From positions 7,549,375-7,613,374 of the forward strand of contig NC_088297.1 of the NCBI RefSeq assembly GCF_032854445.1: a DNA stretch of 64,000 nucleotides. The letters are read 5' to 3'. The notes beneath the pieces were generated by a model, which saw only the letters and a program-made list of their open reading frames with translations, did not search any database and was not told the origin of the DNA. This document shows positions 24,420 through 61,761 of this stretch, one piece after another; position 1 is the stretch's first letter; the number at the start of each line of letters is the position of its first letter. The translations under genes and the position numbers were made by a program. This DNA is from Liolophura sinensis (lineage: Eukaryota > Mollusca > Polyplacophora > Chitonida > Chitonidae).

Positions 24420-24720
24420 TTGTAAGATAGCTTTAGTTCTCGCTGAATCTGTGGTACCAGTACTGGATAAGCGGCACATGCTATTGTTTTCAAGGAAATA
24501 TTCGTCCACAGCAACAACTGTTGTTCTCGTGGTCTTATCTCGCTGTGTGATATTCACAGGGACTGCAGGACCGTACATACGCTTTCTTCCATTGAAAGAT
24601 TCGGCCACAGTAACAAATGTTGACGTGTTCGCGATTTTATCTCGCTGTGTGATACTCACAGGAGTTACAGTGCCGCACATACGATTGTTTCCACCGAAAT
24701 ATTCGTCCACATCGACAGAC
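24420..24720 (-). repeat. Tandem copies (about 100 bp) of a zinc-finger exon end
   Basis: Three units start at about 24,702, 24,600 and 24,501 (steps of 102 and 99 bp). On the minus strand the first unit is the second finger of the exon above. The next repeats its C-G-R-I-F ... E-Y-H-T-A-R-stop almost intact, in the same frame 34 codons downstream. The third is broken by stops. These copies lie after the stop codon and so would be 3' untranslated. Confidence 0.8.
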
Positions 24721-24962
24721 GTGTTGTGTGCTGTTAGAGGAATGTTTTATCCTATAGTGGGTCGTGTACGTGGATTTTCTCGTAAAGACAATACCGCATA
24801 TAAGACATGTTCGACAGCTAGCCGGTTCAAAAGTCCGCAAAGCTACCGATCGGCCTGTAAGATGTCTTCTTTGTGCCGTTGCATTCTGTGATTGAGAACG
24901 CTGGCTCATATGGGGTATCACTGGATTTCCTGTTGTGCCAGCATTCGGAACGGTCTCAGGAT
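24637..24962 (-). CDS. Terminal exon K: zinc-finger pair
   Basis: The acceptor is gtttttattttacctacag|AT (phase 1, strong pyrimidine tract). It encodes 107 residues after the split codon, ending C-E-Y-H-T-A-R-stop. A linker rich in Ser, Thr and Gln comes first. A C2H2 finger follows (C-L-I-C-G-I-V-F-T-R-K-S-T-Y-T-T-H-Y-R-I-K-H). Then comes a compact finger in which the first pair is C-R-C-G and the second is H-C-N-S-C. The layout matches exon I at 37 kb residue for residue in the finger region (R-K-S-T-Y, H-Y/C-R-I-K-H-S, W-K/R-Q-S-Y). Such pairs bind DNA in lola-type proteins. Partial copies of the second finger lie downstream. I am sure it is a finger exon and less sure of its parent gene. 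Confidence 0.8.
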
Positions 24963-25029
24963 CTGTAGGTAAAATAAAAACAAAATACAAACAATCAAAG
25001 TGCCAATGAAGAAACCACAGCATACGACT

Positions 25030-26550
25030 GATGAAATAATTTTAATTTCCAATATTTCAATACTACCTTTATGTGTACGCCTAATACTTCCAGCACTGGC
25101 ATAGCATTTTCATAGATACGTAACCGAAACCGTGGGTTATATAGCCACGCTTTAGGCAGCGACTTTGTAAATTCCTCCGATTTCACTCTTCTTTGGCGAC
25201 AGTATGTCGTCTTCGGCGTTCGTAATATCGGTGGCACAGTCTCACATACTGACAGTTAATATGTAACTTTCCAGGAGTCGGCAGTTTTCCAGAGGAAAAG
25301 AGAACAAAACACAAGATAACACATCTGCAAAGATCATGGGGTTGTAAATACTTTAAAAGCTAGCATAAGCCATAAGGATAAAAGTAAGAAAATACTACTG
25401 TCAATGTAATAATGTGGGATAAATATAAGAAAATATGAACAAATACAGAAGATTCCTATATTTGGTTTTTGATTTCGAAACGAGGAACAAAACGATAGAG
25501 TTGGGAAGAAAATGCAATTCATCCCCCCCCCCCCCAAAAAAAAAAGCGCTCATGTAGAAGACGTTCTTCAAGTAGAAAGATACAAAACGTCTTCAGGTTG
25601 AAATATACGCAAAATAAAACTCATTCAAATTGCAACAGCTGTTTGTAGGCGGGAAACAACGAAACTAATATAGTCATAACCAGTGTACTTGAGGTTTAAT
25701 AGATATAGTTGACTGCAAGCGACAGTTTAAATGTTACTTTTGTTCAGCTTATCAGTTATACCGTGCATATCTTTTTCTGGTAGCATCTTGTATTCTTGCA
25801 AAGGCAAACTGTAGAACTGTTGATATAAAGAATACTTGGTTAGTGGCCGTGTTGTAGGCTCTACAATTGCCTCACACTTTCTTATCAGGTACGATCTATT
25901 GAAAAAAGGGCTATAGAATAAGGGCTATTGAAAAAAGGGCTATAGAATAAGAATATATGTAAGTACATGTATACCTATAAGTGTCTAAGTACACATGCGT
26001 ATACTATTCATTAGACCTGTACGACGTGTGTAGGCCACTGTGTCTTGTCCGTTTCGGTTTGATTTGCTGTTGACAGCGTTAAACGACTAGGACAAACGCA
26101 CGCATGTAAGACAAAAAACCAATACTGTCGTGTCTCACGCTTCCCTTCATCACAAAGATTTTTGCCTCACCAATTGCTCCAAATTTAAATGTAATTAAGC
26201 TGGCATTAAACAGTTAGCACTTCCCCACATAACATTCTGTGTTCAGTAGTGTCCATATATGGAAAAAAAAATTCTGGGACAAAAAAACCTGAATTTCATA
26301 TATTTAGCAGGCATCCACTGAGTAAGGGTGGGGGTGGGGGTTGGGGGGTGGGGGGATAATTGCACTGTTTTAGGAGAGTTGTTCCCCCCGTTTGGATGAC
26401 GTCATAGCCTCCGTGCTACTAACGCAAGAATTATACATGTACCAGGTGTCTCCATGTCACTGGTCCTATAGTACGTTGTATGGTGGCTCACACTGGGTAA
26501 ACAAAGGTGACAATATGGTACAAATATTACTAGTATACATGTATGTAGGT
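25030..26550. other. No gene recognised
   Basis: Upstream of exon K there are only short frames. A 27-bp segment 'gaaaaaagggctatagaata' is duplicated at about 25,900-25,950. Poly-C/poly-A and G-rich runs occur at 25,527-25,545 and 26,327-26,357. Confidence 0.5.
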
Positions 26551-26554
26551 ATAT

Positions 26555-26830
26555 ATGCATGCTTGGGGTTTAACGTCGTACTTAACAAATTTTCAGTCGT
26601 GTGACGACGAGGAGTCATGATGTGTATGTACATATATTGTGTCCTCCTGTGAAAAAGCGAGTCCACGCTGCCAATGCGCTACAGTCACAAAAGTATCATG
26701 CCGAAGACACCAGACATGACACCCCACCCAGTCACTTCATACTGACACCGTGTCAACCAGTCATGTTTCTTTGCTCTTAGCTCTTAGCAAGTACTATTTT
26801 TATAGTCTTTTGTATGATCCGACCCAGAGT
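26555..26830 (-). mobile_element. SINE family 2 copy
   Basis: The plus strand reads 'cttggggtttaacgtcgtac', then 'gacaccagacatgacacccc', then 'atgatccgacccagagt', the reversed end-to-head order of the family. A 106-codon plus-strand frame starts inside the head and is not a gene. Confidence 0.85.
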
Positions 26831-27500
26831 ATTACTAGTAATTGTGACCGTGCTTATTCCACACTGGGCTGTTCCCGATGGAGGTACAGTCAGGACGTTC
26901 ATGGTTACCAGTGACCTGTTCGTGTGTAATGATGTCCGTACTACGGGTTTGTGGGTAGGGCCATGCAGATGTACCCTAACCAATTCTGTTTGTCATAACA
27001 TGAAAATGCTCACCTTGCTTACCCTACTTCATCCCCTTTACATACGCGCACGCGCCATGTTAACTTTAATAAACAATAATTTAAAACGGCATCTTTGGTG
27101 TTGTTCAGCGTATTTCATTCGTTCTGTTAATTAGGGTATGATCTATTTCCCAGTCTCGAGCTAAGGTAAAGGCCAGGGCCCAATTTACAGACAGGGTACA
27201 CGTTTTTTTTAAGACACGAAATGTAGCGATATGTCTTCATTGTACCCACGTTTGACATGGCGTTACACCTTAGTCATAGCACGAACCCCTGCATACTATG
27301 CAATGAATGCTACAGCACCAAACACTTTGAAGCTGCAGTTTTCTTTGACCAGGCGCTTGTAATGAACGAATATCATCAATTTTCAGACATGGAGTTTTAC
27401 TGATGTCAGTGACAAAATAACCAACTAAATGTCAATGAGAATTTTTCAGTAAAATGCCCCAAAAAAAACAATAACTTGAAAGAGAGCGCACCTGTAATAT
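26831..27500. other. No gene recognised
   Basis: Unique-looking sequence between a SINE copy and the 55-bp array. No domain-bearing frame was seen. Confidence 0.5.
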
Positions 27501-27509
27501 ACCCCACAA

Positions 27510-28497
27510 AATGTCTGGAATTGTCTCGTAATCGTAATGGTGTACATAATACGTGTTATGGAATATTGGCTGGAATCGTCTCGTAATGGTAATGGTGTAC
27601 ATAATACGTGTTATGGAATATTAACTGGAATTGTATCGTAATGGTAATGGTGTACATAATACGTGTTATGGAATATTGGCTGGAATTGCCTCGTAATGGT
27701 AATGGTGTACATAATACGTGTTATGGAATATTGGCTGGAATCGTCTCGTAATGGTAATGGTGTACATAATACGTGTTATGGAATATTGGCTGGAATCGTC
27801 TCGTAATGGTAATGGTGTACATAATACGTGTTATGGAATATTGGCTGGAATTGTCTCGTAATAGTAATGGTGTACATAATACGTGTTATGGAATATTGGC
27901 TGGAATTGTCTCGTAATGGTAATGGTGTACATAATACGTGTTATGGAATATTAACTGGAATTGTATCGTAATGGTAATGGTGTACATAATACGTGTTATG
28001 GAATATTGGCTGGAATTGCCTCGTAATGGTAATGGTGTACATAATACGTGTTATGGAATATTGGCTGGAATCGTCTCGTAATGGTAATGGTGTACATAAT
28101 ACGTGTTATGGAATATTGGCTGGAATCGTCTCGTAATGGTAATGGTGTACATAATACGTGTTATGGAATATTGGCTGGAATTGTCTCGTAATGGTAATGG
28201 TGTACATAATACGTGTTATGGAATATTGGCTGGAATTGTCTCGTAATGGTAATGGTGTACATAATACGTGTTATGGAATATTGGCTGGAATCGTCTCGTA
28301 ATGGTAATGGTGTACATAATACGTGTTATGGAATATTGGCTGGAATTGTCTCGTAATGGTAATGGTGTACATAATACGTGTTATGGAATATTGGCTGGAA
28401 TCGTCTCGTAATGGTAATGGTGTACATAATACGTGTTATGGAATATTGGCTGGAATCGTCTCGTAATGGTAATGGTGTACATAATACGTGTTATGGA
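27510..28497 (+). repeat. 55-bp minisatellite, about 18 units
   Basis: The unit contains 'ggaatcgtctcgtaatggta', 'atggtgtacataatacgtgt' and 'tatggaatattggct'. The step is 55 bp ('tgtacataat' at 27,541 and 27,596). The units are over 95 percent alike by eye, so the array is young. The rare variant with 'ttaactggaattgtatcg' recurs after 330 bp. Confidence 0.97.
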
Positions 28498-28825
28498 ATT
28501 TGTTTTCCAGCTTGCTTTCGTACAACTGAACATTTTTCGGATAATCAAAAATTGTGTCTTTTCCAAATCATATTATCTTCAAGTAAAGCGATGCAAAGTT
28601 ATAAACCTATGTTATACTTTGCAGTTCTAACATACATCACGCCTGCTAGACTGTATGAGTGATTTAGTCTACGACTATCTGTCAACAGGGAAATGATTAA
28701 TGTAGTGAAATATAACTTAAGGGAGTCAGGAATAAAAACAATGTGTCATTGTCGAAGAGTTCATCCGATCCTGTAGGTTATTTATTCAAGTGTCCTTAAC
28801 GCGATAAACATTAACCAGAGCACGC
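28498..28825. other. No gene recognised
   Basis: Short spacer between the 55-bp array and the 3' end of the LINE. Confidence 0.5.
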
Positions 28826-29059
28826 ATATTTAATTTAATTCTTTATTTGTTTACTGAGGATATCCCACAACCCATGGGTCACTAGGGGGTCTCCTCAAAC
28901 TTATATACATCATACATTTATATAATCAAAACTTGATAGTGAAGAATAACATATTTACAATACACATAGGCGTCCAATACTGCACACCCTCATATACTTC
29001 ATTAAGTACCGATTATATAACAGATTTAAGAATGGGTTTCAGTCTTAGCACTTTGTACC

Positions 29060-29605
29060 TTAAAAGGAGCTTGTTTGAACTACTTGGTGAGTACGATGGA
29101 TAAATCTTCGAGTATCTTGAATGAATTTGTGCACAGAACAGAATATGGTTTTATTGTCTTCAAGAGATAGGTCATTTGATCCAAAAAGTAAAATATTTGA
29201 GATATGTTTTGGGCAATGCGGAAGGAAAATAGATAAGTGAGCATTTGGAGAAATCGTTTTAGTAAACCTGTCGAACATTTGCTTCCTTTGAGCGGCATAT
29301 GCGGGACATTCAATAAGAAAATGATGAGAATTTTCACATTTGTAATTACATTTATGACAAGACTGGTCATCTGAAAGGCCATTGGTAAATAAGTCTGCGT
29401 GAAGAGCGCTCAGTCCCATCCGCATCCTACAATGCAGTATCGAGGAAAATGTTACAAAAGAATCGTACAGTACGGAAATAGTAATGCTGTCAACAAAACT
29501 AGGTTTGAGATAGGATTTAAGCTTTTCTAAAGAGTCATGACGAAAGTGGAGAGGTATTGAATTCCAATCTTTAATTGTTTGGGGAATAAATGACGACATG
29601 TACAA
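29060..29605 (-). pseudogene. LINE ORF2 C-terminal part, frameshifted
   Basis: This 181-codon frame continues the element after the frameshift. It contains a zinc-knuckle-like C-H-K-C-N-Y-K-C-E-N-S-H-H-F-L-x-x-C-P region typical of the C-terminus of Jockey/CR1-type proteins, preceded by W-N-S-I-P. It belongs with the reverse transcriptase at 29,758-31,263. Confidence 0.82.
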
Positions 29606-29757
29606 GTGGATACGACCTTTGGGAAGACGGATGTTGTGCTTATTTCGTAGATTGTATGTACTGGTGACAGCTTCATTTCCGCATGGTAGTAATTTTTTTC
29701 AAATAAGGAGGCGAAAGCCCATTTATAATTTTATGGAAGAGAAGAATTCTGTGGGAT

Positions 29758-32080: not shown

Positions 32081-32532
32081 TCAAGACGGTGGTCCAGGGG
32101 GTGGTAACATCTCGAACACTAAGTTTGAAACCATACCGTTGGTTCTTTGTCGAAAAGCTCGTTGACTTCTGCAAAATTCCCTTGAGCCGGTGATGGACAG
32201 GGGATAGTTTTTCGCTTTTAAATAGAGCTCCAGACAAGATCGCAGGCTTCTATATGACGGTAAGGTGTAGTCAAGACCCGATTTCTTACGGACTTTCCCG
32301 AAGTAATCACAGAGATATTCGTCCAGCTCTTTCGGAGGAATGTCCTCCATGTGTCTGCTGTCTGAGTTCTGTCCTCTGGATAGCCAACGCTCAAAATGGA
32401 TGACCGCTCCCTTTACACACCTGATCGTAGACACAGGCTTCCCCTTGAGGTTGAATCTGTCCCCTGCTGGATGTCTTCCAAATTGTTCCCCGTCTACTCT
32501 CAGTCTTAGAGACGTGCGGGCATCTGTGGAAC
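32081..32532 (-). CDS. Terminal exon J: Crypton-type core-binding domain
   Basis: The acceptor is cactttcggcttgtgcag|GT (phase 1). The exon encodes 149 residues and a stop. The linker contains D-R-F-N-L-K-G-K-P-V-S-T, the counterpart of the R-F ... S-T motif in the sister exons. The helical domain follows: A-V-I-H-F-E-R-W-L, M-E-D-I-P-P-K-E-L-D-E-Y-L, Y-F-G-K-V, S-L-R-S-C-L-E-L-Y-L-K, Y-P-L-S-I-T and F-C-R-S-Q-R-A-F. The tail after the domain is Pro-rich and unlike the others. It lies between the two zinc-finger exons, so the two types are interleaved. Confidence 0.82.
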
Positions 32533-35245: not shown

Positions 35246-35248
35246 GTG

Positions 35249-37151: not shown

Positions 37152-37510
37152 TTACTCCTTCTTGTAAGTAGGACAACTCTGTATGTGCCGCCAGTAGGAC
37201 TGTCGCCACTCGTACATTTTCCCACATGTACAAGTGAATAGAGTTTTCGTCCCGGAATGCTTGATTCGGCAATGTTCCGCATACGTGGACTTCCGATTGA
37301 AACTGACCGCACAAATGTCACAGTAAGACTTTCCGCAACTCCTGGCAATTACTGCGGCGTTTTTGTGACTGAAAACTCCCGCATTCGAGTCGCCAGTATA
37401 ATGGGGCTCGACTTCTATCGTCAGGTTGTCCGTCAAATACTGTGACGCACCAGCAATCCGGCCACATTCAGAGGTTAGGAGACTAGAGCCTTGTTGGGCG
37501 TCAGCTAGTC
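37152..37510 (-). CDS. Terminal exon I: zinc-finger pair
   Basis: The acceptor is ttttccgttgtctttgtag|GA (phase 1). It encodes 118 residues and a stop. A Gly- and Ser-rich linker of about 60 residues leads to a C2H2 finger (C-D-I-C-A-V-S-F-N-R-K-S-T-Y-A-E-H-C-R-I-K-H). A second finger follows with C-T-C-G-K-M-Y-E-W-R-Q-S-Y-W-R-H-I-Q-S-C, a C2HC type whose first cysteines are one residue apart. The open frame extends upstream to 38,003 through a SINE, but that is a by-product of the lack of stops. I place the start at the splice site because it matches the phase of the other ten exons. Confidence 0.82.
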
Positions 37511-43594: not shown

Positions 43595-43977
43595 TCATAT
43601 CTGTGACAGCTGATCTCTCTTTCTATTAAAGGCAATTCGACTTTGCACGAAAACATTGGACTTGCTCAAAGAGTACGAGTAATTGTGCATTCTCAAGTAA
43701 TGGTCCAGGTTATAGCGAATTTTCCCGAATGTGGAATAGCAGAACTCATTCCCGGAGCTCTGCTTCACAGTGGAAAAGTATTCCGCTAGGTAGGCGTCAA
43801 GCTCTGCCGGCGGCAACTCCTGCATTTGGCGATATTCTCCAGGTTCTCGGCACGTAAGCCACTGATGAAAATTCTTCGCGGTGCCTCTGATGTGGCGCAG
43901 AAGAGAACTAGACATGGACTGAGACGTTTTTGTGAGCTTCCTCTGGGATACGAGTCGCGGCTGGACCGCTGTCACAG
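43595..43977 (-). CDS. Terminal exon H: divergent core-binding domain
   Basis: The acceptor is tataatttcttcctcag|CT (phase 1, strong pyrimidine tract). It encodes 126 residues, the shortest of the domain set, and a TGA stop. The helix order is kept (F-H-Q-W-L, L-P-P-A-E-L-D-A-Y-L-A-E-Y-F, then L-D-H-Y-L, then F-V-Q-S-R-I-A-F). However, S-L-R-S-C is replaced by G-K-I-R-Y-N and the Y-P-x-S-I-T segment by Y-S-Y-S-L-S. The R-F linker motif is absent. Among the nine it looks closest to KIAA1958-like vertebrate sequences, so it may be the oldest member or serve another target. Confidence 0.78.
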
Positions 43978-44234
43978 CTGAGGAAGAAATTATATCTATG
44001 TTGCCCCTCCCCAAGAACAGCTGGTCGGTCGTGAGATATCCTGTACAGGATAAAAGAAAAGTGGTTATAGAATGTTCGTCGGGACCACCCTTTAACCTAA
44101 CTCAACTAAAATACAATGCATTACCCTGGCACAAAGCGATGTCGACTGTTCAGTACACCAACCGTCACCAATCTTTAATACAGCACCTATTGTAAGTACT
44201 ATTTAGTATTAACAAACATGAAAAGTCTATAGTA

Positions 44235-44660
44235 ATGCATTGATATCAATTCCTGATTAATGCATGACCGCGCATCGACATCTGCAACTCCAGGTTAATT
44301 ATGACCCCGCATCGACATCTGCAACTCCGGGTTAATGGATGACGCCACATGATCATCTACAACTCCCGGTTAATGTATGACCCCACATGGACATCTGCAA
44401 CTCCGGGTTAATGCATGAGCCACATTGATATCTGCAACTCCGAGTTAATGCATGACCCACATGGATATCTGCAACTCCGGGTTAATGCATGACCCACATG
44501 GATATCTGCAACTCGGGTTAATGCATAACCCCACATGGACATCTGCAACTCCGGGTAAATGTATAACTTCGCGTGGACATTTGCAACTCCGGGTTAATGT
44601 TCCCCTCCCCCCCCCCCCCCCGACACCAGCATGTACATCCAGGTTAATGTATGACCCCTG
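44235..44660 (+). repeat. 37-38-bp tandem array, about 11 units
   Basis: Unit similar to 'catctgcaactccgggttaa' followed by 'tgcatgaccccacatgga'. The step is 37 bp between 44,281 and 44,318. The array is interrupted near its end by a C-run (44,606-44,621). It lies just upstream of exon H in the presumed intron. Confidence 0.92.
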
Positions 44661-46065
44661 AAATAACGATATTCTGTCAAAAACCATTTTTTTTACTAAA
44701 CTTGAAATTGTGATTTCCAGTTTTTTTCTTTTTTGTTTTGACACAAACGTGGGACATAAACGTAATTATTACAAAGCACACATGTACATCTCGCTTATTT
44801 GGAAATGTCAATAGCAATACAAATGAAATAACGGTCTTTTCTTGCAGCAAAATGGTCAGACTGAGCCTTCACACCTACCTAATAACCCTAGACCTAATGA
44901 CGAGACCAAACCTCCGTTTCTGTCCTTAGGGTTTAAAGTCTCTTCCAACTTCATTTTGATACAATTTCACAAATGTATCCTTGTAGCAAGCCAGTCCCAA
45001 TTCATGTATATTTATAATGCTTACTCACTAGAAAGCCACGTCCGGAATACCAGGAAGAAGGCAACTGTATTGCTCATCCAGCTATTGTTCAATTTTACGT
45101 GGGGCTCCCTACTGAAATCCTTCCAACAGTTCACTCCAGCTATACCGGGTTGTAGTGAGCACTCGTCAAGTGTATCCAGAGGAATTCATTCAACTATGTG
45201 ACTATCTCGATGCAGCTCTTTTTCCAGCCATGAGGCTTGTTCAGAGTGAAAACTTGCTGCTCTGAGTCGTCTTCTAGTGGAACGAGATCTCCTCGCCATA
45301 GCAAAATTAACCTGTAGCTATCTGAGAAAGTCTCATGTCCCTGATTCTCACTTCAGAGATTTGTGCACAATGGAACCATTTTGTGCTCTGAATTTCAACA
45401 TGATTTTCTGTTGATTAGAAATGAAAATCCTCTATGTTCACTGAAGGTTAACCGTTATTAGGACCATGTAAACATAGGAATTGTAATGTGTCTAGAAATT
45501 GCACAAGCAAATATACTCCTAACGTTTCTTGAACATGGATTTTTGGCAGTGGTCAACTCACATGGCTCATCTGTTACATCAGCCACGTTGATGTTTACCA
45601 ACTGTACATCACCAACGATGTCTCCTTCGACCACACGGGCAGCTATGCCCAAATACTGGCTTGAGCACTATGCCTAAGACGAGGCTGATACTCAACTCTC
45701 TCGCCCACAGGAGTGTAATTTTTACGTGAAGTTGTTAGTGTCCTGGAATGGCATATCTCGGTATAACGTGTCACCACACCCATTGGTGTTTTAAGTGGTA
45801 ATAAAGCACTCGACTGTGCGTGGTACAGGTGGTATTGGATTGCTGCTTAATACTTTACAAGTGTTCACTTATCAAGCGACGTCTGTGAGTTTGATGGATT
45901 GTAGCAAGGAGGAGTAGACTACTAACGGGTTTTTTCACTCGTCACGCACAGACCTTCACCCACAGAGCGACCAATAGTCCAAGAGCAGTATAAGATCAGG
46001 AATAGCCAGGCTTCCCAGACCTTGTTAGAGGTTAGGATTATGACCGATATAAATAAACATTGTCG
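44661..46065. other. No gene recognised
   Basis: Short frames only on both strands. None shows the exon cassette motifs. Confidence 0.5.
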
Positions 46066-46798: not shown

Positions 46799-47253
46799 CT
46801 ATAATGACGATTGTTTAATCGCTATTTTCCTTAGCTTGAAAGCCTTTTGACTTTTCAGGAACTCATGTGAACTAGTAATTGAAAAGGGGTACTCTTTCTG
46901 CTTCAAGTACAGTTCCATACACGACCGAAGGCTTTTGAAAGACCCGATTGAGTAATCTTCTCCGGAAACTTTACGCACAACGCTGAAGTACTCAACAAGG
47001 TACTCGTCAAGTATCTTTGGAGGTATATCTTCTATATATCTGTTGTCTCGACGATGCCCTTCTTTCAGCCAGTTCTCAAAATGAACCACAGCTGAGCGGA
47101 CATGTACCGTGGTAGAGCCAGGCCTTCCTGCTATGTCAAATCTCTGTCGGTCATCTCTCCCACGGCTGCTCAGCCTTTCCCTGATAGCACCGCCCTGTGC
47201 GTTAGTCGTATTGGAACCTTCAGATCTGAGGTAACCGACTCTACCAAGGAATT
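46799..47253 (-). CDS. Terminal exon G: Crypton-type core-binding domain
   Basis: The acceptor is tttcctgttttcagcag|AA (phase 1; the tandem CAGCAG allows a one-codon shift). It encodes 150 residues and a stop. The first residues F-L-G-R-V-G-Y match F-P-G-R-V-N-Y of exon F. The linker motif is Q-R-F-D-I-A-G-R-P-G-S-T. The domain contains V-V-H-F-E-N-W-L-K-E-G, Y-I-E-D-I-P-P, Y-L-V-E-Y-F, S-G-E-D-Y-S, S-L-R-S-C-M-E-L-Y-L-K and Y-P-F-S-I-T-S-S. The chain ends ten residues after R-K. A domain of this kind should bind DNA as an alpha-helical bundle. No catalytic recombinase domain follows. Confidence 0.85.
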
Positions 47254-49131
47254 CTGCTGAAAACAGGAAATAAAGGGTATCATGTCTGACTCAAGGCACA
47301 TGCACCGCTCACTATAGCCACAAGGAAATATGCAACATCCGAAAGATGGCTAGCACTGCTTTTGTTCGGTCTATAGTAGGTTTACAAGTCAATGTAAACT
47401 GAATCTATGTCGGAATATTTGTTACTTCATCATTGACGATTTTAGCATATACCTAGCGGAGTACCTCTCCATGCATTTTACACGCTACCAAGCGTGACCT
47501 ATTAAATGACCCAAGCCCCCAGTTCCAGATTACTCTTCGGTATAACATATAATCTATCGTTGTGATTTACCGGAAAAAAAGAAAACAAATAGATAAAAAG
47601 ATATAAAAATTACAATATCTCAACGGCTTTAATCTAAGCTCAGAGGAAAAAGATTGTGGTTATCTCACCGTGCAAAATATACAGTAATGTATATAGGCAT
47701 TCTCGAGCCGAGATAATATTATACCTTGTATGGTAATGTGGATCAAGATGCTCGAATTTTTTTTTAATCATAATCTGCAAAGGGCCCAAAAGGCAACGCA
47801 TTCAAATGTCTCTATAAAGGTGATAATTACCTTGGCCAAAAGTAATTAAAATAATTACCAAATGCTGTAATACGATTGCAACCAAATAATGTATTATGGA
47901 TTAAAATCAGAATGGCACTAAGTCTGCAAAAAAAAATACCGAGTCAATGACAAATGTCACATTCATATCTCCGCGAGGTGTTAATGACATTTGCCAGTAA
48001 TTGTTAAAATTGCATGCCTCTTCCTTTGCGAAGAAGCGACTGAGTACAAATGATAACGTACAGACGAACAACCTGACTGCCATAGCATAAGGAAGTTGTG
48101 GGGGTTCAAATGATGGCATCGTAGAACTGTCTATTGCACTACGTTCCACCCACTGGTCTATGCTAAGGAATCCAAAGCATGTAACCAATGAGAAAAAGAA
48201 AATGAAAAAAAAAAAATACATGAACCGGCGTATGTTACGTTAGTATTGAAACGGTGTTCTCAGTACGTTATTTTTCTCTTTAGGAAATGGTTGTAATATA
48301 GCCGAAATAACGTTCAACCAGGAACATTCATTCTTTCAATATGCCATTTGAAGTGGCCAGCACAACTTTTAAAATTCAGCCAACCGGACAAGTACATGTA
48401 TAAACAAAAATAACTTCAGTCTAACTGGCACGCAAACTGACCAGGGGGTCAGTTTATTTCCTATATGCCACATGTAACTAGTTACTATCACAAAAATGTC
48501 ATTTAAACCCTTCTTAGACAATATGAATGCTATAAAACTAGAATAAATTCCGCGGAAACCACATTAAAGTTTAAAAAAATTTCACAACAAACTTTCCATT
48601 CAGAAGACTATTTTCCACACCAAAACGTCTGCATTTCGTACTTATATGAACAGTGAACAAAGCTCTAGTGTAATTTAAAATCCTAAATGGAAGGAAATGA
48701 ATAAAAATAACAAGTACATGCACATTTAGGAGACAAACAAAATTTCTGTTTTCTCGCAGCCTTCGTTGAAAGCCCAGTCTCAGTGATGCCCACCAGATAC
48801 CTCAATCTCTCGGTATACAGACACCGGGTCGATTAACCTTTCAAAGCTATAGGTAGTGCGCTACCGTAGCTGGAATTCAAAGCGTGACATTAGCTACCAG
48901 CATTAACAAATATAAATACTGTCTGTTAAGTTTACAGATTTCTGATAAAACCGGCTGTACCAAGAAAACACTTCGGCAATATCCTGACATGTAATTTGTG
49001 CCAACCAAGTACATGTACAGCTAAGCTGATTTAATAGTGTTCCTATATCAGCATGTGGACCGCACGTAACGTAGCCAGCTGCCAATATAAACGAAGGATC
49101 CAGTCACCAGCTATCTGTGTACATTCATGAT
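47254..49131. other. Spacer between exons F and G
   Basis: No coding domain was seen. The immediate 5' flank of exon G resembles that of exon F at the splice site. Confidence 0.5.
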
Positions 49132-49571
49132 TCATGAGTTTTTCATGATCATGAATTTTCTTAGCCTATAAGCTTTCTGGCTTTTCATGAACTCCACAGA
49201 ATTTGTAATCGACAAAGGATAGTTCTTCAGTTTCAAGTGATGTTTCATACAGGATCGTAGGCTTTGGAAAGAGGCTATAGTGTAATCTTCTCCCGAATGT
49301 TTTTGTACTCCTCTGAAGTATTCAGCAAGGTACTCGTCAAGTGCATTCGGAGGTATATCCTCTATGTGTCTATCGTCTCGATAACGTCCTTCTTTCAGCC
49401 AGCTTTCAAAGTGTAAGACAGCGGCTTTGACATTTCTTATACTGGAGCAAGGCCTCCCTTTCATGCCAAACCTTTGGCTGTCCATATTAGTGTCACGGCT
49501 GCTAGACACTCCTTCTGAGAAACCACCCTTCGGCTTAGAAGTTCTCGCGTAATTGACTCTACCAGGGAATT
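49132..49571 (-). CDS. Terminal exon F: Crypton-type core-binding domain
   Basis: The acceptor is ctttctgttctcagcag|AA (phase 1, with tandem CAGCAG). It encodes 145 residues and a stop. The frame stays open from the splice site, reading F-P-G-R-V-N-Y-A-R-T-S. The linker motif is Q-R-F-G-M-K-G-R-P-C-S-S. The domain contains F-E-S-W-L-K-E-G, H-I-E-D-I-P-P, Y-L-A-E-Y-F, S-G-E-D-Y-T, S-L-R-S-C-M-K-H-H-L-K and Y-P-L-S-I-T-N-S. It is the nearest relative of exon G, probably by local duplication. Confidence 0.85.
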
Positions 49572-51272
49572 CTGCTGAGAACAGAAAGTGAGATGCTAGG
49601 AGTCACACAAGACTTTCTTGATCAAAAAGGTATATAAGCCGCCATATACAGGCATGATAAAATAGAAAAATATCTCAGGCGTCTAAATCTCTGCCTCATT
49701 TGAATCCTAAACGTAAGTACCGCATAAGTAAATTTGCTTACATGCTGTCCTCTAAACCGCTGAGAGTTCAAACACTGATAAAACAGTACATAATCACTTA
49801 GTCCAGAAGTATGTTGCAATGTACCTGGTCCACCATATGTCAACTTCGCTAAAGAAATGAATACAGAAACCTCTTGTATTTATCTGAGCACTTGTGCATT
49901 CATTATTACCAATACAAATAAGGGTAAAAACAGAGTAACGATGACAGTGCCATAGTCGATGAATGGTACAAATTCTGTCTTAAGGTACTGAAACTTCACT
50001 GCTTTTTATTTTATAAAACCACGTATGTATATCGAAGTTCCCCAGCCCCAACAATAGAGTTTAACGAAAGTATTCTTAAGGAAAAACTTGCTTTAATCCA
50101 ACGAGAAGCCCAATCATGCGGAACAAACAATGGAAACATATGAATGTTGTGGTACTGACAAACGCTGGGACAGCTATAAGGGACTTACGGCCAAGCTAAA
50201 TTGTTTTAAGGTCTGACTGCATTATTAATGAAAAAAGACGCGGGTAAACTGTACACACATGATGTATGCAGGTATATAACAGGTGTGATTATTTCTGCAG
50301 AAAGTGAAGAAAGCTAATGGAACTATTTCCAACAGGAGCGAAATGAAAGCCCAGCACTGACAGCGTCACATACCATGAAAAACGTGGAAGAGTACCAGAA
50401 AGGGATTTTTTTGAAATTATCAGAATGGCCTTGTAGGTATAATGGACTTGAATAATCGATTGGAATGCAAAACAGTATGACGTCGTACGTTAGAACAATC
50501 ATACATCTAGGAATGACCAAAACTTTCGAAACTTCAGCATCTCAGTATTTTTGGCGAACAGCGTTCTTCACTAAACTCTGTCCCTCGATGCACGGCAATA
50601 GTTGCTTTGCTTCACATAGGGCTTCCCAGATCGCATAACTTCATCTTCAACTTTCTAATTCACCTATTCTATTTGGCATACTAACGAAATTCCTTGATGA
50701 AATATTTTACAACAAACTCTAAGTGTAGGTTGGTTATGAATAACTTAAACACAAAGACATCAACGCAGTGTGTGATACAATATTGGTAGTTGTACTACGC
50801 ACGAAACAGGTAAAACTATGTGAAGTTTAAGTACAAATGTGTCCTTATGTTAAAGCAATGTATGCATGACAGCAAAGTCGATAGACACATGAAAGAAACT
50901 TAAAACAACTTCTAGTGTCTTTGTTTACCAGAAAATCAAATGTGAACAAAAGAATGCAAACAACGCAATAAGTAAAATACAAAGAGGTGTTCTAAAACTG
51001 ACCCTACGGTGTTACCGGTCGTGTTTAACACAGTCAAAACCTATTAATGTGCCTTACAAAAACGATCCTCAACCACTCATTTTTAAAATCCCGTGATGTA
51101 CTGTAATTTTCCATTAATATATGACACACCACAAGCCAATATGTCAGCTAAGCTCTATGGCGACATCATCTTAAAAAAACTTGGTGGCCGATGTAAAGCT
51201 CCAGACCCTACTACCAACAGGTAACTTTACATATCAGGTGAACACTGAAAGGCCCTTATCATCCTGCCTTCT
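49572..51272. other. Spacer between exons E and F
   Basis: No coding domain or repeat array was seen. Confidence 0.5.
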
Positions 51273-51751
51273 TCACCCAGTAGTGGAAGACCCGGAATTC
51301 GTCGTATATTGCATAGTCAACATTTTTCTACTTTTAAAAGCCATTTGGCTTTTGGTAAACTCAATCGATCCTGTGATTGAACACGGGTAATTCACTTGCT
51401 TCAGGTAAATCTCTATACAAGACCTAAGACTGCTGAAAGAAGCGACGGAATAATCTTCTCCGGACTGTTTGCGTACAATGCTGAAGTACTCAGCAAGGTA
51501 CCCGTCAAGCGTTTCCGGGGAAATATCCTCTATGTGCCTACGATCCCCGTGCTTCCCTTCCTTAAGCCAGTGTTCGAACTGCACAACGGCTAATCTGACG
51601 TGTCTGTTCGTGGAATCGGGTCTTCCACAAACGTCAAATCTCCGGCTATAAGTCTCCGTTCCATGAATGGAGCTTCTTCTTCTTGGACCACGGTGTATGT
51701 CCTCCGAAGTGGAATGCTGCAGTCTGACGCATTCGATTCCACCTACGAGAC
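51273..51751 (-). CDS. Terminal exon E: Crypton-type core-binding domain
   Basis: The acceptor is actttcttgtccgcagcag|GT (phase 1, with tandem CAGCAG). It encodes 158 residues and a stop. The linker is longer than in F and G and Arg-rich, with R-R-F-D-V-C-G-R-P-D-S-T. The domain contains V-Q-F-E-H-W-L-K-E-G, H-I-E-D-I-S-P-E-T-L (the second Pro-Pro is changed to Ser-Pro), Y-L-A-E-Y-F, S-L-R-S-C-I-E-I-Y-L-K and Y-P-C-S-I-T. The C-terminal tail is Ser-, Thr- and Gly-rich and unique to this exon. Confidence 0.85.
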
Positions 51752-53193
51752 CTGCTGCGGACAAGAAAGTGAAAGCTATGATGTTCTCTTAGAAAACATA
51801 AGATTGTCTTCGGAATGACGAAAAATAAAACGAAAACGCACATGATGATCTCGAGACACAAATACTGAGTCGTATCTGATAAAGACAGTAATCACCGCAG
51901 AAATCCACATACCAGATCAATATCGAAGTGAATATGATCCTAGACAATATCGCGCAGGTAAAAAAAAAACAAAAAAAAAAAAAACGCCAGGTCATACCTC
52001 ATAATAAAGAACCAGTTGTATAACATCTAGGGAAGAAGTTTCAGATCCATACCTTTACACTGAGCTAACCGTGTCACTGTAAAGCGGTGTACTTAACTTC
52101 GCTACTATAATGAAGGGTAAGCTATCCGTAGAGCATCGTCAGGTCATCGCAGCACAAATCTGGTTTCACCTGCACAAATACGTTTTTATCAATGTATGTT
52201 AAAAGTCAAGTTTATGTCAATGCGCAATGTGAATCGCGACAGGTGAGATGACGTAGTACTTTGCACCAAGTTGTTACTGCAAAACTTGCATGAAACCCTG
52301 AGCGAGGTAAATTGTCAAACCCCGCGTTTTATCCGATACGTGTGACCATTTGCCAACTATCAGGCTACTGTGGTTGCTACGGCTTTTGTACTCCAATTGT
52401 AGACAAGAGATATTAAAACGTACAGGCTTGCTACAATTTCTCAAATATGAGCTTCACCCAATCATTTAGATCCCGCGGAGATGGACAAAGTACATATTTA
52501 TTTAGAAACTTCACATTTATAAAACATCAGTTTCTTGTTCGTTTGCACTATAATGTATTGTGTGTCATCTAATTTATTCATTTTATATTTTAAAAGCTGA
52601 AACGCTTACACTCAAAATAACGTCTTAATAGGTGAAATCTAGAGTAGAGACAGGTATTTTATTGCATGACTTGTAGATATGTATATGCCTTCACATATTG
52701 CTCGACGTGCGCAAGAGAATTAAACGACAAGTTTCTCTAGCCTAGAAGAATGAATAAAAATAGCTTGCAGTTAACGCCACATCGACAATATTACAGCCTT
52801 TTTGGCCAGAACGTGCGCATACCGGAAGGAAGTCATGGTTTTCAATGTGATAAAGACAACACCCAAAATCAATCAAAAATAGACGAACATTTTAAAACCA
52901 GCCAAAATAGCACGGACCACCAATAGTAATCGAAAAACAATTAATATGTTTCAAATATGTAATCTAGAAAAATGTATACAGTAGGCAATCTAGATAACTG
53001 TTTACAGAAATGTTTCAGAATTATGTTTTCTTATATGGACCGTAGGTTTTAAATAATTAATGACACCCTGGCCATAGACGCTGTCGGCTAAATCAAATAT
53101 AAAAGTCCACTTGAGCAGACAATGCTATGGACGTAAACATATAACCAATAGATCACGTTAGCTAGATGAAGCATTAGTCATCTATGGGTCATG
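51752..53193. other. Spacer between exons D and E
   Basis: No coding domain was seen. There is a poly-A run near 51,960-51,984. Confidence 0.5.
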
Positions 53194-53199: not shown

Positions 53200-53297
53200 T
53201 ATGCAATTTGTGAGAATGTTTGCCAACCAGCCGCCTTTTATCGGCATACATGTGTTGGCAACCTTTAACATCTTTGACAACACACACCTACAGTACA

Positions 53298-53782
53298 TTA
53301 TTCAAGGAGCAATCTATCTTCTGCACTCTGCTTAGATCTAACTGATTCGCAAACCGCTGATAGTCGTAATATTTCATTTTTCCTTTCCTTGAAAGCGTCT
53401 TGGCTCCTCCTGAACTGGACAGAACTTATGATGGAAAATGGGTATTTCTTTTCTTTCAGGTAGTGCTCCAGACAAGATCGAATGCTCTTGAATGTTGCGG
53501 CGGTGTAGTCTTTTCCTGACTGTTTCTGTATAGTCTTAAAGTACTGTGCGAGATAATGATCCAGATTGTCCGGAGGAATGTCTTCCATTCGTCTGTTTTC
53601 TCGATGGTCTCCTTCCTTCAGCCACTTCTCAAACTGATTCACAGCTCTCTTCACGTGGTGTATTGTTGAACAGTATGCCCGACCAAAGCTGAACCTTTCT
53701 TGCTCACCGGCTTTCAAATGTGCCCTTCTCAGAGGCAAGGTTGCCATGACTTTCCCTGGAACCTGGTTGTTCTTATTCTCCC
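53298..53782 (-). CDS. Terminal exon D: Crypton-type core-binding domain
   Basis: The acceptor is tctggttctcgtcctacag|GG (phase 1). It encodes 160 residues and a stop. The frame is open further upstream, and an AG at 53,830 would give another phase, so I prefer the downstream one. The linker motif is E-R-F-S-F-G-R-A-Y-C-S-T. The domain contains N-Q-F-E-K-W-L-K-E-G, M-E-D-I-P-P-D-N-L, Y-L-A-Q-Y-F, S-G-K-D-Y-T, S-I-R-S-C-L-E-H-Y-L-K and Y-P-F-S-I-I. The tail after F-K-E-R-K is longer than in most (about 35 residues) and highly charged. Confidence 0.83.
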
Positions 53783-55420: not shown

Positions 55421-55866
55421 TTATTTCAATTTCGATAACTTCTGCTTGAAAACCTCTTGGCTCCTCACGAATTTCTGATCACCAATGATGGAGATGGGAT
55501 ATCCCACTTCCTTTAGATAGTGCTCTATACACGAGCGAAGGCTTTTGAGGGACCCAATGGAATACTCTTCGCCGGACACTTTCTTCAAATCGCCGAAATA
55601 CACGGCCAGATATTCGTCCAGAGTCTCCGGAGGTATTTCATCGATCCGTCTCTCGTCACGAAAATCGCTCACCCTGAGCCACTTTTCAAAGTTCACAACA
55701 GCTCCACGGATTTGCTGCTTGGTGGACAAGGACCGGGTACCCATCGAAAATCTGTCTTTGACGCACTGGAGGCTGTCGTGTTTACCTACACCATGCCCCT
55801 CTTTCTGGATAACGCGACGCATGACTGACTGACTTCCTCCGAATGTCGCATTTGTAGTCATGAATT
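55421..55866 (-). CDS. Terminal exon C: Crypton-type core-binding domain
   Basis: The acceptor is ttttattttcgtccaacag|AA (phase 1). It encodes 147 residues and a stop directly after K-L-S-K-L-K. The linker motif is D-R-F-S-M-G-T-R-S-L-S-T. The domain contains V-V-N-F-E-K-W-L, I-D-E-I-P-P-E-T-L-D-E-Y-L, Y-F-G-D-L, S-G-E-E-Y-S, S-L-R-S-C-I-E-H-Y-L-K and Y-P-I-S-I-I-G-D. It has the shortest tail after the domain, so the domain itself is probably the functional end. Confidence 0.84.
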
Positions 55867-56906: not shown

Positions 56907-57415
56907 TCATCGAGGCTGTTGGATATGAACTCTTTCCAGTTTGTGCTTCCTGCGCTTGAATGCTTGCTGGCTATTCACAAAGCACTGCGATTTGGTGATG
57001 GAACTGCCGTAGCCCTGTTCCTTGAGGTACAGTTCTAGACAGGATCGGACATTCTTCAATGAAGACGGTGTGTAATCCTGGCCAGATGGTTTCTGGATGT
57101 TACCGAAGAAGTCAACAAGGTAGGCGTCAAGTTCCTCCGGAGGAATATGCTCTACGTTGCGATTGTCCTTCATGGAACCAACCCAGATCCACCTTTCGAA
57201 CAGCTTCACCGCCGCTTTCACGTGTCTGGCTGTCGACCTGGAGATGAGAGGGTTCAATATCAAGCAGTCAAACCGCTGTCGTTCCTCAGCTCGATGCGAA
57301 GGCCAAAACGCTGGCCTCCCGAAGTCAGCTTCCTGTGAGGTACATGTGGGGTTCCCCTGTTGTACTTCGCTGCTGACTTCGTCGGCCTTCCCAGACAAAT
57401 CCATGGCTGCCAGTC
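56907..57415 (-). CDS. Terminal exon B: Crypton-type core-binding domain
   Basis: The acceptor is cttgtttctcgctgaacag|GA (phase 1). It encodes 168 residues, the longest of the set, and two consecutive stop codons. The linker is long and acidic, then polar. It contains Q-R-F-D-C-L-I-L and a spaced S-T-A-R-H-V. The domain contains V-K-L-F-E-R-W-I, V-E-H-I-P-P-E-E-L-D-A-Y-L-V-D-F-F, S-G-Q-D-Y-T, N-V-R-S-C-L-E-L-Y-L-K-E-Q and S-I-T-K-S. Tyr-Pro is replaced by Tyr-Gly before S-S-I-T. Confidence 0.84.
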
Positions 57416-57539
57416 CTGTTCAGCGAGAAACAAGACGAATCAGACATGGATGGCTACGACCTCATCCTCACGTCTATCAAGTCATTTTCCAAAAATGTAG
57501 AACTTAAAATAACTTCAGCATGCTGAGAAATGTTCTTTT

Positions 57540-57640
57540 AAACAGTGAGTTTTTGCCCTTTCTGCAATATCAGTCTTGTGACAATGAGTTTTTGGCCTTT
57601 CTGCAATATGAGTCTTGTGACAATCAGTATTTGTAATTGG
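57540..57640 (+). repeat. Two-copy direct repeat upstream of exon B
   Basis: A segment around 'tttttggcctttctgcaata' followed by 'tgagtcttgtgacaatgagt' occurs twice in about 90 bp (near 57,550 and 57,591). Confidence 0.7.
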
Positions 57641-58030
57641 AGGACACAACACTTGGGTAAGTATATCCAGATATGCATCATAAATCAATTTTTTTTTTTT
57701 CAACGATTATTTGACAAAGGGAACACAATACGTTAGATCTGCCTTTTGACATCAAAGCGATCTTAATGCTACGTGTTGATCACTGTCTATTTCAATGATC
57801 AATCCGTAACACAGAATTCATTCAGAAAACCATAAGGTTTTGGCTTTTCCATAATATCAATCCGATGGCAGTCAACACCAGCAAAATGAGAAGGTGGAAC
57901 AGGGTCGGGTCAGTGTTCATTATCACGTCATGCATTCAAAAAAACAGAATACAATATACTAACGCTGTCGTAAATACTTCACGTTATACAGGTTGATTAA
58001 TGTTAATTTCAAACAATACATTCTTAACGA
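57641..58030. other. No gene recognised
   Basis: AT-rich spacer in the presumed intron upstream of exon B. Confidence 0.5.
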
Positions 58031-58315
58031 ATGAATGAATACTTGAGGTTTAACGTCGTACTTAGTAGTTTTTCATTCATATGACGCCGAGGACACATGC
58101 GTGTATATAAATACTGTGTCTTATTTTGGCAGGGCGAGTCCATGCCGTCAAAGTGCTGCATCCATTGAAGTTTTATGCCCAAGACACCAGACATGACACC
58201 TTAGCAAGTCACATTATACTGACAGCGGTCAACCAGTCCTGTTTCCTTGCTCTGACCTCAAGCCAAGTGAGACAGAAGCAAATACGATTTTAAAAGTCTT
58301 TGGTATGATCCCACG
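58031..58315 (-). mobile_element. SINE family 2 copy
   Basis: The plus strand reads 'cttgaggtttaacgtcgtac', then 'gacaccagacatgacacctt', then 'tctttggtatgatcccacg', the same order as the copy at 26.6 kb. A 65-codon minus-strand frame across it is part of the repeat. Confidence 0.83.
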
Positions 58316-60535
58316 CAAGTTTGTGTTAAAAAGAGCTACAAGGGTGACAACAAGCATATCAAATTTGTCATCGAGAGGATTTGCTGTTCTGCACACGGTT
58401 GTAAAGACAAGTCGTTGAAAAACCATGGAATTATTTTTTCAACCGGTCCGGACAATTTGGCTCTCAAAAGGGCATCGATTTACAGCACAAGACAGAAGGA
58501 TTTTGCACCCACCAAAAACAGCCGTATCTGCTTTCGCCATTATGCGGCTAACAGCTAAGAGAGGAACACAACTGAATTTTAACGAGGGCGCCTGTGCACA
58601 GTAGTGATAAAATACTATTAACTGAATTGAAAACTGACAGATAATAAATCGCTGTACACTAACGCCGACGTCAACGCCGTAAATGTATTTATATTGTCCA
58701 CCAATCGGTGTTTTTATGAAGCGGGGGGAGGGAAGGAAGGAATAGTAAATAAATATTAAATCATAAGACTGGATAAAACTTACCAGCCCCTATTATTGGT
58801 GCGGTTGGAAACACTTGAAAACATATTCCACCTCATAAAACTTGGAATCTGAAGTCTGACACAGAGACACTGGCACTGACAAAGATGCCAGTGTCATAAA
58901 TTGGGACTTCAAGATCGTCCACTTCAGGTTCACATTGATACGGGAGTGTATTTGTTTCTGTGTAGCTAAAATTCATCTCCAAAATGACATGGGTTTGATA
59001 CGAATTCCCAGCTTATGTAAACCAGCCTGACTTGGGTTGGCCATCTATGGCGTCACCTGCTGAGTTTTACTCGGCGGCCTGCTGGAGATAGGCTAGAGTA
59101 GTAAATCTATTGTTTTGCTACATTCAAAGTCATGATTACGTTTCTCAGAAGCCCTCCCGGTAATATACTGCTTAAACAGGTTCTTTATATTTAGGACCCG
59201 TAACCAAATCTGGATATTATTCCTTCAAGGTAAAAATGCATCCACAAGGAAGTTCGTTGCACATTAATGGCAGATTGAATTCTTCCACATTTTATGTTCG
59301 AAACGCGCAAAATACGTCATCAAACTAAGGACTCCTACCCCTGTCAACTTGCTTCATTTAAGGTTAACCGTGAGTAATTCATACCACTGTACCCAAGAAT
59401 TGCACCAGGAGTAGTTAGTCCTGGGGAACTAATTGTACATTATCAAACAAACCGTCTTTGCCTGTGCTCGAAGAAACTAAAAACTTGTCCTGGATTACCC
59501 CACCCTCCTCACCAATGTAGGTTACCATGGTAACAAAATACTATAAGTATGATCTTATTCAAAGGACGTATCATCAAAAAATAATGGCCTTGCTCAGCTG
59601 AATGTTTGATATGGTGCCGATAAATGTTCATAATATATATGCACAAGTGGTGACATAGCTCTAAGTATATTTAGTTGAACATTTCACTACATAAAGAAAA
59701 TCAGTTTCACACTTACATATGTCACAAAAATAAATCAGCCAAATTAAAAGACGCCGATAATCTGTTTCTATCAGCAGCAAAATTACTCAAAAACGAAACC
59801 CCACTCCGCCCAAAAAAGAAGGTAATTCCGAAACCATTTCGGCGTAATCTCATCACCAAGTTTATACAATTACCACCTTTATTAGGCGAAGCTAAACATG
59901 ATCTACATATATACATTTAAAACAACAAGTTTACGGAATTAAACCCATTCTGTATCGCCTCGATAATACTCGTCGTCCTCTGTCGGAACAAAATCAAAAT
60001 GGGTCCAATCCACGAGATTAAAGCCAAGGGATTAATCAACCAGCCTCTTGGACACAAGGAGCGAAAGGAAGACCGTTAAAATCCCATCCATCTTGGTTCA
60101 GACAGCCGTCAGCAAAATTCCTAGCTCACTACTCGCAATACACTGCATTAGGGCGAACGCTTAGCCGTGCTAAAAAAACACCTGTCTGATTTTGTAGGGG
60201 ATTGATGGACTGCAAGAACAACTCTCTCAGTAATTTCTCTCGTCGTGAAGTGTGATAAATTGTGACAGTAAAATGGTAACCTTGTCTCAGAGGGGCGACT
60301 TTACAACTTTACCTTCAATGAAATCCTAAACTTATCATTCGCCAAGAGCCGTCCATTTTGCAGCCACTTTTTTCCATTCGTTTTCTTTCGGCCTCTGACC
60401 AACCTTGAACAATCTTTCGGGATTACTTCTACATAACTCTTATGCCCAATGCTGATGGCACGGACAGCTCGTGCTCATATTATTGAAGAGTGTCGCAAAT
60501 TTAAACAACTAAATGTACATGTAACTAGCTTCCTC
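58316..60535. other. No gene recognised
   Basis: Short frames only. The plus-strand 81-codon frame at 59,675 is Lys-rich and has no recognisable domain. Confidence 0.5.
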
Positions 60536-60539
60536 ATAT

Positions 60540-60640
60540 TAAGTTCTGCCCGATTTCCTCAAACCATAATGCTGGTCGCCGTCGTATAAGTAAATATTCT
60601 TGAGTACCGCATGTAACACCGATCAAATTAAAAAAAAAAA
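60540..60640 (+). mobile_element. SINE family 1, 3' fragment
   Basis: The segment 'gcccgatttcctcaaaccat' to 'cgtcgtataagtaaatattc' plus an A-rich tail matches the family 3' part. Confidence 0.8.
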
Positions 60641-61150
60641 TCAAAACAGCAACAGCAGTATTGAAACACGTGATTCCATTGGTTAACATGGAACTAGATC
60701 AAACAAGGTCCCGTGAAAACCATAAGAGAAAAGACATTAAAAGACAACACTAGACAACTAAATGTATATATGTATTGATAAAGTGTCACATTAAACCTAA
60801 AAAAAAAATTGCCATGTAGGATAACCGAGATATCGCGGTTCACAGTAAGAAAACCCCCCAAAAGGAAAAATAGAACGGGCCGCCATTCTATCAGTTTTAA
60901 CCATCAAGAGAGAGATATTTTTACCACCCGAGAACCCATCTGTTCACAGTCACCCGCTCCTAGTTCACCATTTTGACATGTAGAAGTAGTGTTTAATCAG
61001 TTGTGTTCCCTTTGATTACAAGAAACTTCTGACACAATTCTTCAAAGCCATTTTCAACGATAAAGTGGTAATGGAATACGTCTGGCGTTATTCCCCTTGG
61101 AGTATTCTCCTTGGTGTCAAACAAGGGACCACAATGCATGGCCTTGGGTT
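60641..61150. other. No gene recognised
   Basis: Presumed 3' flank of exon A. No canonical polyadenylation signal was found near the stop codon. Confidence 0.45.
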
Positions 61151-61151
61151 G

Positions 61152-61245
61152 TAATAATAACGATGACGGTAATAATAACGATGACGGTAATAATAACGAT
61201 GACCGTAATAATAACGATGACCGTAATAATAACGATGGCGGTATT
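61152..61245 (+). repeat. 18-bp tandem array just downstream of exon A
   Basis: Five copies of a unit close to 'gtaataataacgatgacggt' minus two bases. On the minus strand the array begins about 30 nt after the exon A stop, so it would lie in its 3' untranslated region. Confidence 0.93.
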
Positions 61246-61273
61246 AATTCTTGTACCCAGTCGGTTTATGTGT

Positions 61274-61761
61274 TTACTCTCCAGGCGATGTTGGCAAATC
61301 CTCTGAAAACTGTGTTCGATTCCCGGCAGCAAATTCCTCACCAGGTCTCGAAAGAGACAGTCTCCGTAGTCTAAACGCAACTTGACTACGGTGAAACGCG
61401 AGAGACCTCGTGATTGACTCCGGATAAATCTGGTCCTTCAAATGCAGTTCTAGATATGATCGTAAAGCACCCAGAGAGAATGGCGTGTAGTCGCCGCCGT
61501 ACGGTTTTTTTATCTTGCCGAAATAATCCACAAGGATTCCGTCCAACTCCTCAGGCGGGATATCCTCGATCTTTCGCTGGTCTTTGGTGGGACCTCCGCT
61601 CAACCACCTCTCGAAGTTCTTCACGGCCGCCCTCACGTGGCGACTCGTTGACACTGACCGATCATAGTTGGGTATGAATCGATTATCCTTCTTCCCGTGC
61701 AAGGATACCCCGTGGCCAGACTCTGGGGTGCTATCAGCTCTGGTGTTAGCGGTAACCATTC
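61274..61761 (-). CDS. Terminal exon A: Crypton-type core-binding domain
   Basis: The acceptor is tattgttttcgccgtacag|GA (phase 1). It encodes 161 residues and a TAA stop. An ATG follows the split codon, so an initiation here cannot be excluded, but most of the sister exons lack one at this place. The linker has N-R-F-I-P-N-Y and S-V-S-T-S-R-H-V. The domain contains V-K-N-F-E-R-W-L, I-E-D-I-P-P-E-E-L-D, L-V-D-Y-F-G, G-G-D-Y-T, A-L-R-S-Y-L-E-L-H-L-K and Y-P-E-S-I-T. It is the first terminal exon in transcript order within this window. Confidence 0.84.

Follow-up and report, generated by a model that had tools for sequence, protein, structure and literature searches.

A row of candidate alternative last exons with recombinase-type and finger domains in the mollusc Liolophura sinensis

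Coding blocks of the window and the common exons to its right

The window analysed here is a 64,000-nucleotide stretch of contig NC_088297.1 of Liolophura sinensis (C3:7549375-7613374 of a 609-Mb genome) that carries eleven minus-strand coding blocks in a row between 24637 and 61761, treated below as candidates for the alternative 3'-terminal exons of one gene. Positions above 64,000 are window coordinates continued rightward. As an earlier sequence-only reading of the window had described, all eleven blocks are present as open frames, each with its own stop and a candidate phase-1 acceptor that sets the exon start, and the rightmost block begins exactly at 61761 (Table 1). Nine of these terminal exons, or tails, are of a core-binding (Cre/QRICH1-like) type and two encode C2H2-like fingers, in agreement with the proposal that most tails would be recombinase-derived helical domains.

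Two further exon families were found by comparing loci rightward of the window. Exon 1 of the window gene encodes an ATG and a conserved segment of ~47 residues (MGSLERVQYKFASIIGELCSEPIVLSQFAVWLDLKLAEYKAKGSISL) and has neither a Pfam match nor a PDB sequence match. Exon 2 has the composition of a disorder-type linker, with a psi-K-x-E motif behind a hydrophobic run; it looks like a disordered linker, and the motif is one that we take to be of SUMO type. In a 284-kb stretch, in which the window is followed by another 220 kb on the right, exon 2 occurs in seven copies upstream of tail arrays, opening with the motif [DE]CSxxxPxPxW, and the seven exon-1 copies lie further upstream still. The sequence-only reading had pointed to the DNA right of 64,000 as the place for a common exon ending in phase 1, and such a donor was found there, directly after the last base of exon 2 at 79982 (C3:7629356). 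It had also held that no initiating exons lie between the blocks. None was found between the tails in the window, where exon 2 has no copy and exon 1 matches at E 2.8 at best.

The exons, their phases and their joined frames can be read directly from the DNA. When exons 1 and 2 are joined to each tail, 13 of 13 combinations are open from ATG to stop (366-427 aa), and none of the 13 remains open when the tail acceptor is shifted by 1 or 2 bases. This result is partly built in, as phase-1 acceptors in open frames were chosen; the new information comes from exons 1 and 2, which are open together and of matching phase. The thirteen comprise the eleven tails of the window and two more to its right, so that the eleven counted earlier are all real and the gene itself has at least 13 intact tails (11 core-binding-type and 2 finger). 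Exon 2 has a length divisible by three and is in phase 1 on either side, so that skipping it would keep the frame (13/13). In six of the seven exon-2 copies there is a phase-1 donor that agrees with the consensus at 7 or more of 9 bases, and the copy at 183315-184007 has none at this cut; in three of the six, the window gene's included, a 7/9 site is also found in another phase. An open reading frame with a basic region at 88586-88978, was considered as a candidate upstream exon; no frame like it occurs in the rest of the 284 kb.

Table 1. Candidate exons of the window gene and other features, in window coordinates. Each intact terminal exon runs from a phase-1 acceptor (upper coordinate) to its own stop (lower coordinate) and is open when joined to exons 1 and 2.
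Feature	Position	Strand	Remarks
Exon 1 (ATG)	82100-81959 (C3:7631333-7631474)	-	Donor CTTTAG|gtatga, phase 1
Exon 2	80614-79982 (C3:7629356-7629988)	-	Acceptor ATTGTAG|AC; donor TCCTCAG|GTTAGT, phase 1
Candidate terminal exons, core-binding type, right of window, same gene (two)	65244-65689, 69727-70214	-	Intact
Candidate terminal exon, core-binding type	61274..61761	-	First in window
Candidate terminal exon, core-binding type	56907..57415	-	QRICH1 Pfam E 2e-5, under cut-off
Candidate terminal exon, core-binding type	55421..55866	-	QRICH1 Pfam E 9e-4, under cut-off
Candidate terminal exon, core-binding type	53298..53782	-	QRICH1 Pfam E 0.033, under cut-off
Candidate terminal exon, core-binding type	51273..51754	-	
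Candidate terminal exon, core-binding type	49132..49574	-	
Candidate terminal exon, core-binding type	46799..47256	-	First sequence of folded alignment A1
Decayed tail exon, core-binding domain fragment	45189..45317	-	Tenth copy in window; profile match E 0.0013
Candidate terminal exon, core-binding type	43595..44040	-	Most diverged (28-32% identity to other eight)
Candidate terminal exon, C2H2-like finger and second C-x-C..H..C finger	37152..37510	-	
Candidate terminal exon, core-binding type	32081..32532	-	
Candidate terminal exon, C2H2-like fingers	24637..24962	-	Last of array
Duplicated second-finger remnant	24538..24636	-	Directly behind last exon; 102-bp tandem repeat
Minisatellites between tails	27515-28499, 44257-44599		17.9 copies of 55 bp (96% matches); 9.2 copies of 37 bp
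Long interspersed nuclear element (LINE) with reverse transcriptase PF00078	29060-31308	-	Between two tails; frame broken between 29698 and 29758
Serine beta-lactamase-like gene pieces	7123-19144	+	Two PF00144 matches (7123-7506; 11192-11515) and a weaker one (10540-10788)
DUF3471-like frame	18290-19141		+ strand; under cut-off; one of the beta-lactamase-like gene pieces
Minisatellite, 5 kb	12792-17750		48 bp x 103; between beta-lactamase-like pieces

Rfam and tRNA scans of the window gave no matches, and the frequency of poly(A) signals at the candidate terminal exons was not over background.

Tail domains, acceptor phase and array history

The core-binding tails share a domain of ~100 aa with pairwise identities of 28-64% among the nine in the window. 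With the tails translated in isolation, three of the nine match the QRICH1 family (PF25561), all below the cut-off, while the tail at 56907 reaches 34.2 bits against a cut-off of 30.8 within a 5000-aa frame. A core-binding tail also gave a structure match to QRICH1, and its predicted model has a fold of the Cre N-terminal domain type. On this model, of moderate confidence, the tails resemble the core-binding domain fold of a tyrosine recombinase, and they look like the corresponding part of a recombinase of the Crypton/QRICH1 kind. The Cre N-terminal, or core-binding, domain is the part with which the recombinase grips DNA, and it is likely that the tails would bind DNA as well. A PDB sequence search with the tail profile gave only an unrelated best match (E 0.097). 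The catalytic half with its R-H-R-Y residues is absent in frame, as every tail frame stops soon past the core-binding part. A Pfam scan of the three minus-strand frames over 24-64 kb returned only QRICH1, C2H2, the LINE reverse transcriptase and one chance-level match, with no recombinase catalytic domain; the scan is rather insensitive, as such long-frame scans recovered only two of the nine core-binding tails and one of the two finger tails.

The finger tails at 24637 and 37152 have a finger pair in common (42% identity, same cysteines and histidines). Their best family scores lie below the cut-offs, with PF00096 at 23.0 bits for the former and 13.3 bits for the latter (cut-off 25.2) and zf-met at 19.2 bits for the latter (cut-off 21.2). 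A genome search with the finger tails gave four matches, namely the two window tails, one remnant and a weak one on C4, and close copies of them were found nowhere else in the genome.

Acceptors were ranked by a fixed ad hoc score. The top-scoring AG is in phase 1 for 10 of the 11 window exons; for the exon at 56907 the top acceptor, at 57237, is in phase 2 with a slightly higher score, and the phase-1 acceptor at 57415 is second. The latter ranks first if the scan, made over the nine core-binding window exons, ends at the domain start. In the 284 kb, 62 profile matches yielded 54 full-length family exons, 8 partial ones being omitted. The best acceptor is in phase 1 for 45 of these 54, as compared to 53 of 153 control frames of at least 100 aa that do not overlap family exons.

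Judged by substitution patterns, the tail exons are under purifying selection. Nonsynonymous divergence (dN) is below synonymous divergence (dS) in all six of the 36 window pairs for which dS is defined, ranging from 0.24 vs 1.07 to 0.79 vs 1.51 for the pair nearest to neutrality, the other 30 being saturated. Among the eight closest pairs in the 284 kb, the two with a defined dS behave likewise (0.16 vs 0.97 and 0.23 vs 1.13) and the rest are saturated. Similarity declines with distance along the 11-tail array (rank correlation -0.32) and a 33-tail array (-0.36), as tandem duplication predicts; in a 7-tail array the correlation of -0.19 is not significant. Decayed core-binding copies occur outside the window too, besides the one at 45189-45317.

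A family of related loci in the genome

A genome-wide search gave 45 exon-1 matches; all 45 candidates were scored, none has an internal stop, and 41 are at least 76% identical to the probe. With two tail probes, 150 of 276 and 150 of 278 candidates were scored, and their union of 182 places together with 12 local tails brings the lower bound for core-binding tails to 194. Each of the 194 lies on the strand of the exon 1 that is nearest to it in the 5' direction. For the first 150 this holds 150 times, as compared to a mean of 75.1 and a maximum of 129 in 2000 trials with randomised exon-1 strands. The distance from tail to exon 1 has a median of 18 kb and a maximum of 70 kb in the 150, and reaches ~94 kb for one tail of the union. 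Between 1 and 33 of the at least 194 tails belong to each of 36 exon-1 copies, and none of the 194 to the other nine. On this count C3:7816026 has 33 tails, C3:19670672 has 23, and the window gene has 11 plus its two finger tails. Behind one copy that owns none of the 194, at C3:7652197, lies a C2H2 frame (PF00096 at 24.8 bits against a cut-off of 25.2) whose continuation shifts frame.

Several observations concern exon 1 itself. The copies at C3:7735023-7735259 (-) and C3:7822024-7822266 (+), 87 kb apart, are identical over 56 aa and 96% identical over 135 nt (dS 0.21), which points to recent duplication or gene conversion. Seven head-to-head pairs of exon 1, spaced 3.3-6.1 kb, were counted from the genome-wide match positions. 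Two diverged exon-1 relatives with an exon-2-like frame (PDWM motif) lie outside the arrays at L034 (C1:79751001-79761000) and L033 (C1:70529501-70539500). The one at C1:79760600 (L034) is another of the nine copies that own none of the 194; downstream of it, behind a phase-1 acceptor, is a frame with a helix-turn-helix of the Tc5-transposase type (PF03221, E 8e-4, under cut-off). These relatives perhaps represent an ancestral single-tail form. Elsewhere in the assembly, mitochondrial COX1 recurs seven times on contig C99, once every ~15.5 kb; these tandem mitochondrial genomes are probably an artefact of assembly. Mitochondrial contigs show the gene order ND3-ND2-COX1-COX2-...-ATP6, with names assigned by eye, which suggests a mollusc, probably a gastropod. 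A published gastropod table closes with NAD3-tRNA-Ser1-NAD2 (PMC10977763), and on the circular genome COX1 would follow.

A model of one gene with many ends

Taken together, one gene very probably contains all eleven blocks as its alternative 3'-terminal exons, and its first two coding exons lie a short way past the right edge of the window. The proposed transcription unit would start in exon 1 and run for about 57 kb, from 82100 down to 24637. Exon 1 would be spliced to the exon-2 linker, and the phase-1 donor of the latter would be joined in cis to a phase-1 acceptor, of which there are at least 13. Every such acceptor opens a last exon with its own stop, and the choice would fall among 13 last exons. 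The resulting protein set would combine a common N-terminal interaction or modification part and the linker with differing, DNA-gripping recognition ends, and its members would be DNA- or chromatin-binding proteins.

The rival with most to say for it is that the tails have promoters of their own and are trans-spliced to the common exons. All of the >30 mRNAs of mod(mdg4) are reported to arise by such joining to members of a 3' exon array, and trans-splicing is named for lola too (PMC12692577); the large distances from tail to exon 1 would also suit such a mechanism. The alternative exons of mod(mdg4), however, are described there as lying on both strands (PMC12692577), whereas every tail found here sits on the strand of its exon 1, so that cis-splicing suffices and is favoured over trans-splicing, which we regard as improbable. 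Considerably less probable is a row of separate tandem genes that would have the blocks as their last exons, each gene having a promoter of its own and 5' coding exons that escaped recognition. Short, fast-evolving exons could hide between the tails, where the Pfam scans are insensitive, but no copy of exon 1 or exon 2 lies there, phase 1 is common to two unrelated tail types, and a complete upstream exon pair with a fitting donor is present, in the same order at other loci.

The likeness of the domain to Crypton/QRICH1-type recombinases, together with the decayed copies, might suggest that the blocks are remnants of Crypton-like transposons rather than host exons. Against remnants stand 54 full-length open copies in 284 kb and, in every pair with a defined dS, a lower dN. 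The catalytic half is missing in frame, most copies have a phase-1 acceptor, and the strand order with exon 1 is strict; we give this reading a slighter chance than that of separate genes. Slightest of all is the chance of a Dscam-like arrangement, with the blocks as mutually exclusive internal cassettes spliced onward to a common last exon. Tandem domain repeats are typical of such arrays, but each frame here meets its own stop soon past the domain, and donor-like sites (at least 7/9) occur in the last 330 bases of only six of the eleven exons, once each and at no common position.

Under the preferred reading of alternative terminal exons, the nearest known systems are mod(mdg4) and lola, in which any of a large number of alternative 3' exons can be spliced to a common 5' part that encodes a BTB domain. 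The sequence-only reading had proposed a locus of this kind with a BTB common part. The architecture stands on sequence, with common 5' coding exons, an array of terminal exons with their own stops and one donor phase; the BTB part does not. None of 125 BTB matches in the genome lies at 3.2-17.6 Mb of the contig, a search that a domain split over exons could escape, and exon 1 matches no Pfam family, so that descent from the lola/mod(mdg4) family is not indicated. The locus differs further in that most tails are of recombinase type, that dozens of paralogous loci exist and that all 194 tails lie on the exon-1 strand. Outside Arthropoda, a search of taxa that included Mollusca is reported to have found none of the TTK-type BTB domains to which those of lola and mod(mdg4) belong (PMC11426971). 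The lola/mod(mdg4) architecture appears to have been reached here with unrelated modules. Among the BTB frames of the genome, one at C3:1995381-1995710 (-) lies ~6.5 kb from the exon-1 copy C3:2002188 (+), on the opposite strand, and is probably unrelated; tandem arrays of BTB frames at C1:50.60-50.62 Mb (about 360 aa) and C6:0.34-0.38 Mb (381-445 aa) are far from exon-1 loci.

The tails have precedents of another kind. QRICH1, WOC, ZMYM2-4 and KCTD1 (DUF3504 genes) are described as domesticated Cryptons whose recombinase domain lacks most catalytic residues (PMC3212892). The Pfam and structure matches to QRICH1 connect the tails with these host proteins, but the DUF3504 genes have a larger recombinase domain, whereas here only the ~100-aa core-binding part is found, carried by interchangeable last exons, with a copy number of at least 194 and behind another N-terminus. 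In plants, the ALOG domain is likewise a tyrosine-recombinase N-terminal DNA-binding domain reused in regulators; it differs in its DIRS1-like origin and zinc-ribbon insert, and the excerpt of that source mentions no alternative-exon system (PMC3537659). Open-access literature listings contained no paper on a locus of such composition, which is weak evidence of novelty. Clusters of KRAB or ZAD C2H2 genes expand DNA recognition in tandem under a common N-terminal effector by duplicating whole genes, whereas here it is mainly last exons that have multiplied.

As one of about 45 related loci, the window gene may belong to a system in which a few common starts could yield many regulators. Our guess at its function is SUMO-linked repression or surveillance of mobile DNA. 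A bolder and quite tentative proposal is that of a recognition repertoire of a mollusc type, in which ~45 loci, alike in a SUMO-type linker and a novel N-terminal domain, would draw through splicing on at least 194 recombinase-derived tails plus fingers and other transposase-derived tails, and would form a splicing-based counterpart of KRAB-zinc-finger clusters, tracking mobile DNA or specifying cell identity.

The extreme arrays of alternative last exons used here for comparison are insect BTB loci, and the present one belongs to another phylum. If the model is right, it would be an independent case in which the common part is new and the exchangeable one is a domesticated recombinase domain. 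In loci of this family the choice of splice site from as many as 33 last exons could be tested directly, and domestication would then proceed by birth and death at the level of exons, not of genes. Alternative last-exon architecture would thus evolve repeatedly, fed at large scale by transposon-derived DNA-binding modules, with at least 194 such tails in one genome.

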